33,686 nucleotides of DNA, taken from the IMG/VR virus record IMGVR_UViG_3300028610_002416, positions 1-33,686 of that record. One strand, 5' to 3'. This document shows, piece by piece, positions 25,786 to 27,669 of the stretch. The notes below the pieces were generated by a model that saw only the letters and a list, made by a program, of their open reading frames with translations, made no database searches and was not told where the DNA came from. Each line of letters opens with the position of its first letter. Within the stretch, counting starts at the first letter, position 1. The translations under genes and the position numbers were made by a program. This stretch comes from a virus.

Positions 25786-25796
25786 GCGTGGTGGTC

Positions 25797-25824
25797 GGCT
25801 GGCTGGCTGGCTGGCTGGCTGGCT
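25797..25824. repeat. GGCT tandem repeat, seven units
   Basis: Seven perfect GGCT units at the left border of the A-depleted tract, followed by an imperfect eighth (GGCC). Slippage-prone; it may mark the origin of the tract or be phase-variable. Confidence 0.9.
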
Positions 25825-26006
25825 GGCCTCTGCCCCCTGGCCGCCGTCTGGTCGTGGCGGGGTGCGCTCCGCGTCGTCCGTTGCCGCGTGCCGTTTGCGT
25901 TGTTGCTTGTGGCGTGCCGTTGCTCCTGCTCGCTGCCTCGGTGTGTGTTGCCCTCCGCCCTTGGGGCGTGGGGGGCGGGCTTCCGGTGTCGTTTTTCTTT
26001 ACGATA

Positions 26007-26041
26007 TTTTAATGTGACGTTAATGTTCGCGTTGTATACTG
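26007..26041 (+). promoter_or_regulatory. Promoter-like element within the A-depleted tract, copy 2
   Basis: TTTTAATGTGACGTTAATGT, then TCGCG and TATACT (26035-26040). Similar to the element before the HTH gene (24693-24727). It sits in the only A-containing island and points into the 1.4-kb A-poor stretch, so it would drive an RNA made almost solely of G, U and C. Confidence 0.5.
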
Positions 26042-27669
26042 TTAGTGTTGGTGGGTGGCGGGGTTGTCCCTCCGCCCGGTCTCTCTCTCGTGGGGGTGCT
26101 TCGTGGCTCGTCTTGGCTTGGTTCCGTCCTCTCTCCTCTCTTTCCTTCGTTCGCCCGCCGTCGCCGGCGTGGCTTCCGTGTCGGCCTCGCCGGCCGGTTG
26201 GGCCTCCGTGTCTTTTCGTGGCCCTGGTTCCGTGGCCTCCGCCGCCGTGGCCGTCCGTTGGGCCCGTTGGTTGGGCCTGTCCGCCCTCGTCGGGTTTGTT
26301 GGCCCGCTTGGTTCGTCGGGCGTGGGCTCGTGGGTCGTGGTCGTTTCCGCCGCGCCTCGCGTGTGCGTGTTCGGTTGCGCCGCTTCCTTGTCCGTTGGCG
26401 TGGCCGCGTCCTGGTCCTCTCGTGCCGGCCGTGGTGGCCTGGTTTGGTTTTAGTTGGCTTGGTTTTTCGGCCCGCGCCGGGCGGTTCCCGGCTTTCTCTT
26501 TCGTGGGGGTGTCTCGTGTCCGTTGCTCTTTCTTCGTCTGTTTGGTCTTCTCGCCGGGTTGCCGGTTCCGCCGTTGGTTCTGGCGCCTCTCGTTGGGCCG
26601 TTCGTTCCTCCTCGCGCTCTGTTTCGGGCGCCGTCTTGGTGGCCGGTTTCGCGTCGTGGGCCGCCGCCTCTGCGTTTTCGCGCCGTTGGTCTGGCCGGTT
26701 GCCTCGCCGTTGTCGTGGCGCCGTTGTCCGCCGCCGGCCGTCTGGCCTGTTCGCGGTTTCTGTCCCCGTCGCCGGTGTGGGGGGGGTGCTTCGTGGCCGT
26801 TAGCCTTGTCGGGTTTTGTGGTTCGCGCTCCCTCCCCGCCGGGGGGGGAGCTGTGGCGGCCCGGCTTGTTTCCGCCGTCGCCGTCTCCGGCCGCGGCGTT
26901 GCCGTTGGGTGCTGTGTCGGCGCCGATCAGGCCGTCCTTGTTGCCGCTCCTCCGGCCTCGTTGTCCGTGTTCGCCGCCTTTGGGTCTGGGTCCGCTTGGG
27001 GGCCTGGGTCTGGCGCTCCCGGTGTTGGGTCTGGCGCTCCTGGTGCCTGCTCTTTGTCCGCCGTTGGTTCGGTCTGTCTGGTCGGGCGTTCTGGCGCTTC
27101 CGTGTCTTGGTGGGCCGGTGGTGGGCCTGGCGTCCCTCTGCGCGCGCGCCTGGTCGGGCGCTCTGTGGCCTTGGTTCGCGCGGTTGCCGCCTCCGGGCCA
27201 GCCGCCGCCTTCGTGGGCCTGGTCGCCTCGCCCTGCCCGGCGGGGTTGTCGCCGTCGCCGTCGTGGTCGTCGTGCGGCTCCGGTTCGTGGTCGTCGTTGG
27301 CGCTGGCCGCTGGCCTTGGGCTGTTTGTCGCCGTTTTTCCCGTGCTGGCTCCCGGCGCTCCTTTGCCGTCGTCGTTCCTGCCTGCTTGGCCTGGTGGTGC
27401 GTGGGTGCCGGTTGCCGCGCGGCCCGGCGTCCCGGCCGGCTCTGGGTGGGCCTGGTCGCCCTGCCAGCCGTCGCTCTTTTAGCCGGCTTGGTTTCGGCGG
27501 GGCGGGCTTCGTGCCCGTCCCGCGCGGAGGAGAGCGGCCCGTTAGAGCCTGGGCCGCCGCGCGCGCAGCCTCACCTTTAATTTAGGCTGGTTGCGTTTGC
27601 CAAGGCGCTCCCAGTTCGGGCGTAGTGCGGAGCGCGCAATGAGGTTGTAAGGGCATTTGCACCCTTCAC

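Follow-up and report, generated by a model that had tools for sequence, protein, structure and literature searches.

An adenine-depleted operon ending in a predicted DprA/SLOG-fold gene in phages and plasmids

DprA proper binds single-stranded DNA (ssDNA) and loads RecA, and the SLOG superfamily takes in both ssDNA-binding DprA and the AMP-cleaving LOG enzymes. Adenine or another base is released when LOG phosphoribohydrolases and PpnN nucleosidases cleave nucleotides. Here, we analysed a window, that is the whole stretch of DNA under study, an entire IMG/VR record of 33,686 bases, which contains an operon almost free of adenine (A) on its sense strand. Its last gene, ORF2, and the A-depleted homologs of that gene are like DprA (DNA_processg_A, PF02481/TIGR00732) in their predicted Rossmann-type fold and sub-threshold sequence matches, but they differ from it in being stand-alone proteins of 180-230 aa that fall below the curated cut-offs, in their A-free gene and C-terminal QxxLF, and in the partner, ORF1, that is found at many loci of the A-depleted family. 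ShosA of the ShosTA defence system (8zva) also has a DprA-like fold, but no ShosT-like partner was identified beside ORF2, and base exclusion is unreported for ShosA in the literature searched. The LOG and PpnN enzymes share the superfamily fold (Z about 9-12), but the LOG motif PGGxGTxxE is absent from an alignment of 12 homologs.

Three further systems resemble the operon in composition rather than in fold. Diversity-generating retroelements also undergo adenine-specific change in a defined tract, whereas here no reverse transcriptase was found on 11 records and A is lost for good from a whole operon, including its UTRs. In two reports on MazF (PMC9102682, PMC4775720), transcripts purged of the ACA nuclease motif reportedly stay expressed; these mRNAs are engineered and lack one 3-nt motif, whereas the A-depleted operon is natural and lacks a whole base. 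Similarly, a study of higher eukaryotes (PMC3077370) reportedly describes coding regions of signal sequences that are adenine-depleted on the sense strand, but this depletion is partial and short and that of the operon is near-total and spans a whole prokaryotic operon. The first-pass annotation had known of no element like the tract, and the literature searched, with preprints outside its scope, likewise held no described adenine-free or adenine-purged operon. As far as we can tell, whole-base exclusion from an operon is a new kind of thing.

Composition and coding capacity of the tract

The window carries terminase, portal and capsid genes on its minus strand and early genes on its plus strand, and the tract sits between an HTH_17 gene (24765-25106) and an ORF at 28086 (Table 1). 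Positions 26045-27480 (1,436 nt) contain 480 C, 530 G, 419 T and only seven A (at 26452, 26802, 26849, 26926, 26929, 27200 and 27466), which leaves A-free runs of 407 nt (26045-26451), 349 nt (26453-26801), 270 nt (26930-27199) and 265 nt (27201-27465), with an additional A-free run of 215 nt on the 5' side of the main tract. These figures agree exactly with the first-pass annotation, which had also reported flanks of ordinary A content, here 23-26% on either side, and a GGCT repeat of seven units, found here as an array of 7.8 copies at 25797-25827. Its view that the tract is not a simple repeat holds, although codon periodicity was nonetheless detected (position-specific composition p = 6.5e-7; lags 3, 6, 9 and 12 elevated). 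The strand-specific loss of a single base is not due to chance and is common to relatives; a 192-nt A-free pattern had 551 overlapping matches in the window and 0 in 100 dinucleotide-preserving shuffles. An Rfam search gave no match.

Table 1. Features of the A-depleted segment in the window
Feature	Coordinates	Strand	Basis or remarks
A-depleted segment, whole (operon sense strand with upstream and downstream edges)	25786..27527	+	per-segment A counts; flanks 23-26% A
A-free DNA upstream of the inferred promoter	25786..26000	+	0/215 A; similar upstream depletion in L015, L021, L039
A-bearing island, inferred promoter (TTAATGTT repeat element; TATACT 26035-26040)	26001..26044	+	sequence; 11 A/44 nt
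A-free leader	26045..26102	+	0/58 A
ORF0	26103..26453	+	116 aa; GTG start after GGGGGTG; TAG stop; A absent before stop
ORF1	26516..26803	+	95 aa; GTG start after GGGGGTG; 80% identity to C-terminal part of the relative's ORF1'; dN/dS 0.20
ORF2	26793..27482	+	229 aa; DprA/SLOG-fold protein (predicted); GAD motif; C-terminal QPSLF
A-free 3' edge beyond the stop codon	27483..27527	+	0/45 A

The tract almost certainly is a protein-coding operon; its genes are A-free, and the last of them encodes a divergent protein of the DprA/SLOG fold. Each ORF is preceded by an A-free, Shine-Dalgarno-like GGGGGTG, followed after 4 bases by a GTG start, and this element was also recovered blindly as repeat family D1; we infer the starts and ribosome sites of ORF0, ORF1 and ORF2 from the sequence. 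A related phage, IMGVR_UViG_3300025970_000009, was recovered with a portal-fragment query, and a DNA search identified a homologous tract in it with ~71% identity (L015 13436-14600), which is A-free in runs of 561, 464 and 123 nt. The differences between the two tracts cluster at third codon positions; ORF2 is 68% identical to its counterpart with a dN/dS of 0.28, whereas in shifted frames of ORF2 dN is equal to or above dS. The coding status had been missed by the first-pass annotation, and the conserved proteins are under purifying selection (dN/dS 0.20-0.28). A disordered protein read from the reverse, T-free frames of the minus strand was considered as well and dropped, the plus-strand proteins being conserved. 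ORF1 has no family match in profile searches, and its predicted structure is of low confidence (pLDDT 63) and has no significant fold match. An ORF1 profile matches upstream of other A-depleted SLOG genes, but the partner was not detected at every A-depleted locus; the ORF1 alignment (A7) included one row, L017, in the wrong frame.

A promoter-like box had been noted in the A-bearing island and is present, but a strict sigma-70 scan of the window reported 0 promoters. The element TTAATGTT..GCG..TAT also precedes the tract of the relative and the HTH_17 gene in both phages, and the island may well serve as the promoter. The long A-free run of the window begins directly after the putative -10 box. 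A direct-repeat element, TTTTAATGTT, recurs 5' of the HTH_17 gene and 5' of the A-free operon (window 24692-24713 and 26009-26027; L015 12449-12470, 13391-13412 and 14847) and is probably a phage-specific promoter or activator site.

Three observations concern other parts of the window. A repeat array at 19395-19521 (22- and 32-nt units, GCTTATGTCCCGGACA) directly follows a gene with a DnaA_N domain (18558-19373) and is a candidate replication origin. At the left end of the record, diverged 54-nt tandem repeats (887-1368) lie within a long repetitive reading frame. The ATPase encoded at 15850-17283 is weakly similar to a protein of the conjugative-transfer type from a Pseudanabaena plasmid; the phage may be plasmid-like or of an uncommon lineage.

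The predicted DprA/SLOG fold and the A-depleted family

ORF2 is predicted to adopt a DprA-type Rossmann fold of the SLOG superfamily. The AF2 model, built from ten homologs, has a pLDDT of 86.8 and a pTM of 0.85, and its best structural match is the DprA structure 3maj (Z 14.5, 4.7 Å over 167 residues), followed by H. pylori DprA (Z 14.4) and ShosA (PDB 8zva; Z 13.0, Foldseek rank 1), and then by Moco carrier proteins and LOG enzymes. At the sequence level, the DprA profile match of the window's ORF2 is sub-threshold (E 0.22); the best family members remain below the gathering cut-off of PF02481 (25.6 bits vs 29.6, L029) and the cut-off of TIGR00732 (20.5 bits vs 191, L017). In an alignment of 12 homologs, the part corresponding to the LOG catalytic motif reads SRGSLLAA or GSGSWSSLALAA. 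The family signature consists of GSR, GCCxGAD and WWAGGG..VPL..RL..R, and most members, with the exception of L022, L035 and L039, end in QPSLF, QPALF, QAGLF, QKMLF, QTHLF or similar; this C-terminal QxxLF resembles a sliding-clamp-binding motif. Within the DprA/SLOG superfamily, the protein represents a branch that is both new and divergent.

The SLOG gene, and ORF1 where found, is A-depleted in relatives, mostly with ordinary A content on both sides. Such genes are carried by plasmids of Methylomagnum ishizawai (pRS11DPr6, with A-free runs of 515 and 419 nt), Methylocaldum szegediense, Methylobacter sp. YRD-M1, Nitrosococcus watsonii, N. halophilus and N. oceani, by the phage contigs L021, L022, L035, L037 and L039, and by five of 369 gammaproteobacterial genomes, in one of which the flanks are mostly above 30% A and the SLOG gene is at 3-5% A. 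The family is rare: a scan of 398 proteobacterial genomes at E 1e-12 returned a genome already known as its sole match. DNA and protein searches of annotated phages and further plasmid searches with L035 and L037 gave no match, and related-locus searches with whole phage proteins found little. A-free runs of at least 122 nt occur in 142 of the 369 gammaproteobacterial genomes, but among the matches listed these are mostly repeats or low-complexity sequence, and the presence of a short A-free run is therefore not diagnostic by itself; the match in G199 belongs to the A-depleted SLOG family.

Ordinary four-base sequence and a plain conserved protein in relatives had been named as evidence against the first-pass reading, and the relatives are split, as the close relative is also A-free, whereas three distant homologs (L019, L020 and L023) are of ordinary composition. 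In the protein tree, a single branch sets the 17 depleted members apart (support 86/73; 88% of bootstrap trees), and the window and L018 are sisters. The depleted members thus likely form one clade of single origin, although composition could bias a protein tree. Because they form one clade, the exclusion of A appears to be old, and very probably it has been actively maintained over the long term.

Two loci show further peculiarities. In L035 (769-1863), the A-free SLOG frame continues without a stop into IS200/IS605 TnpA-like sequence of ordinary composition (VHIVWCPKYRK...), which may reflect either a fusion of the two or insertion of the transposase at the gene end. In L022, a 300-nt T-free run (3974-4273, plus strand of the locus) lies ~2 kb from the A-poor SLOG gene and could be an opposite-strand version of the depletion or a low-complexity coding region.

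Exclusion at the nucleotide level and its possible causes

Of 437 codons in the three ORFs of the window that could do without A, 3 contain it, compared with 155 of 762 in four genes of ordinary composition from the window (p = 5e-29); there are none in L029, L035, L039, ORF0 and ORF1 of the window and ORF1' of L015. The only A-requiring residue kept in all counted SLOG genes is the Asp of GAD; the Gln of QxxLF is kept in most. At four-fold sites, A amounts to 0-6% compared with 12-23% in the flanks; G is higher at most loci, T is frequently higher and C frequently lower. A is also missing from Shine-Dalgarno sequences, start codons and UTRs, and what remains of it lies mainly in promoter boxes, stop codons and the codons of these two residues. 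Because synonymous, Shine-Dalgarno, start-codon and UTR A are absent alike, the exclusion acts on nucleotides. Some members retain 5-10% A, and the pressure therefore is graded.

Depletion always affects the strand with the sense of the mRNA, but it extends 50-215 nt upstream of the inferred promoter (A counts of 0/215 in the window, 1/82 in L015, 1/204 in L021 and 1/52 in L039) and 45-150 nt past the stop codon or terminator (0/45 in the window, 2/109 in L015 and 5/150 in L039), sparing the promoter boxes. This implicates DNA no less than mRNA and speaks against a pressure on mRNA alone, unless the DNA at the edges is transcribed from other starts. In the Nitrosococcus plasmids, the right edge of the depletion lies inside the last codons of the SLOG gene.

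Within the Nitrosococcus trio, A sites were lost at 6/29 in the operon and 7/410 in downstream genes (p = 6e-5), five of the six recent losses being A to G, whereas gains of A were similar (11/1042 and 11/1258). These gain and loss rates imply ~5% A at equilibrium, near the observed value, and are equally compatible with a process of A loss specific to the locus and with mild selection at each site. The operon changes faster overall than the downstream genes in this trio. Its synonymous divergence is not raised between the window and L015 (0.90-0.94, flanking genes mostly 0.9-1.5) or between N. watsonii and N. halophilus, and because two of three pairs lack such an increase, a general hypermutator is not supported. 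In the third pair, N. oceani plasmid A (L034) and N. watsonii pNWAT01 (L032), it is raised about threefold or more (0.176 vs 0-0.07), which may reflect recombination or locally faster change.

We propose that this is an old, maintained A-free DprA/SLOG operon that has been spared from an adenine-directed activity of its own products, and we give this explanation as a whole a probability of about 0.4; the sparing taken by itself we put forward somewhat more tentatively. The depletion is restricted to the locus, yet found in many hosts, and its cause therefore travels with the operon; as it also touches that operon only, we favour a self-inflicted pressure. In this proposal, the products, a DprA-type protein possibly tethered to the replication clamp and a small partner, would target adenine in single-stranded nucleic acid, either directly or by an indirect route. 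Since bacterial proteins are made beside their gene, the nearest target would be the sense (non-template) strand and the transcript, so that A-purged alleles would persist. By analogy with the AMP-cleaving LOG enzymes and ssDNA-binding DprA of its superfamily, the SLOG fold might provide the putative adenine-directed activity. The far faster loss of A sites in the Nitrosococcus operon than in flanking genes is consistent with this proposal, as are the near-zero avoidable-A codons in conserved proteins of one clade and the spread of depletion past promoter and terminator, which a cis-local pressure on DNA predicts. On the other hand, the LOG motif is absent from the alignment, we know of no DprA that attacks adenine, and A gains are not clearly suppressed in Nitrosococcus. 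The members with 5-10% A, the right edge inside the gene on the Nitrosococcus plasmids and the loci at which no ORF1 partner was detected also count against it, and an unseen promoter might drive transcription of the A-free DNA upstream. One might further speculate that the operon is a mobile two- to three-gene system whose products attack single-stranded adenine and which, to protect itself, has purged A from its DNA and mRNA and so come to encode functional proteins of about ten kinds of amino acid, but we regard this as rather unlikely.

We favour sparing from the operon's own products over mRNA-level selection and targeted mutagenesis, both of which are serious rivals. Selection for a three-letter RNA, an idea of the first-pass annotation, is possible if on balance doubtful: the operon might have to be expressed under conditions that penalise adenine in RNA, such as in the presence of A-requiring mRNA interferases (MazF, HicA or RelE types), RNA adenosine deamination or ATP depletion during abortive infection, and its transcript would escape cleavage or need little ATP. 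The sense-strand bias, the A-free UTRs, ribosome-binding sites and start codons, the start of the long A-free run just 3' of the inferred -10 box, and the HicA, PemK/MazF and Abi genes on Nitrosococcus plasmids fit this idea, as does the survival of engineered ACA-less mRNAs described in the MazF reports cited above. However, depletion reaches upstream of the inferred promoters and past terminators, an A-directed nuclease would require the loss of short motifs only, and without ATP translation still fails for lack of charged tRNA.

Targeted mutagenesis of the locus without benefit is less probable still. A host- or element-derived factor would convert A on the exposed sense strand to other bases, and purifying selection would keep the indispensable A. 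The faster A loss, the prevalence of A to G and the unreduced gain in the Nitrosococcus trio agree with such a factor, as do the predicted equilibrium and the mostly functional nature of the retained A. However, the A to G path accounts for only ~20% of deep residue replacements, the divergence data speak against it in two of three pairs, and the factor would need to operate across many unrelated hosts. There is no support for a reverse transcriptase or deaminase encoded by the element, since neither PF00078 (RVT_1) nor PF00383 (dCMP_cyt_deam_1) was found in 11 element records, while the controls matched in 3 and 12 genomes, respectively.

A structural or replicative role of the A-free/T-free duplex, for example as an ssDNA loading zone for the DprA-like protein or as a primer-poor strand, is improbable. 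It would accommodate the depletion beyond the transcription unit, the ssDNA binding of the DprA fold and the clamp-motif-like C-terminus, but offers no reason for the coding sequence itself to carry a signal over 1-1.5 kb, and the repeat array beside the DnaA_N-domain gene suggests that the window has its origin at another site. Avoiding methylation or restriction, also raised in the first-pass annotation, would not account for a depletion limited to a single operon within an element of 30-60 kb. An assembly or sequencing artefact, or chance, has next to no probability and is already refuted by homologous A-depleted operons in genomes and in independently sequenced complete plasmids of isolates, by the shuffles and by purifying selection on the encoded proteins.

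Implications

In the extreme members, whole genes including the leader, the ribosome-binding site and the start codon avoid one base, and their conserved proteins are built almost entirely of the ten amino acids that A-free codons can specify (A, C, F, G, L, P, R, S, V and W), yet still have a confidently predicted fold. We know of no mechanism that forces such an exclusion, and whichever cause applies, be it a self-sparing effector, a new counter-defence of phages or plasmids, or a mutator that acts on one base at one locus, it would be new biology. The A-depleted operon is a natural experiment on reduced amino-acid alphabets, and the family is open to experiment in cultured Nitrosococcus and methanotroph strains.
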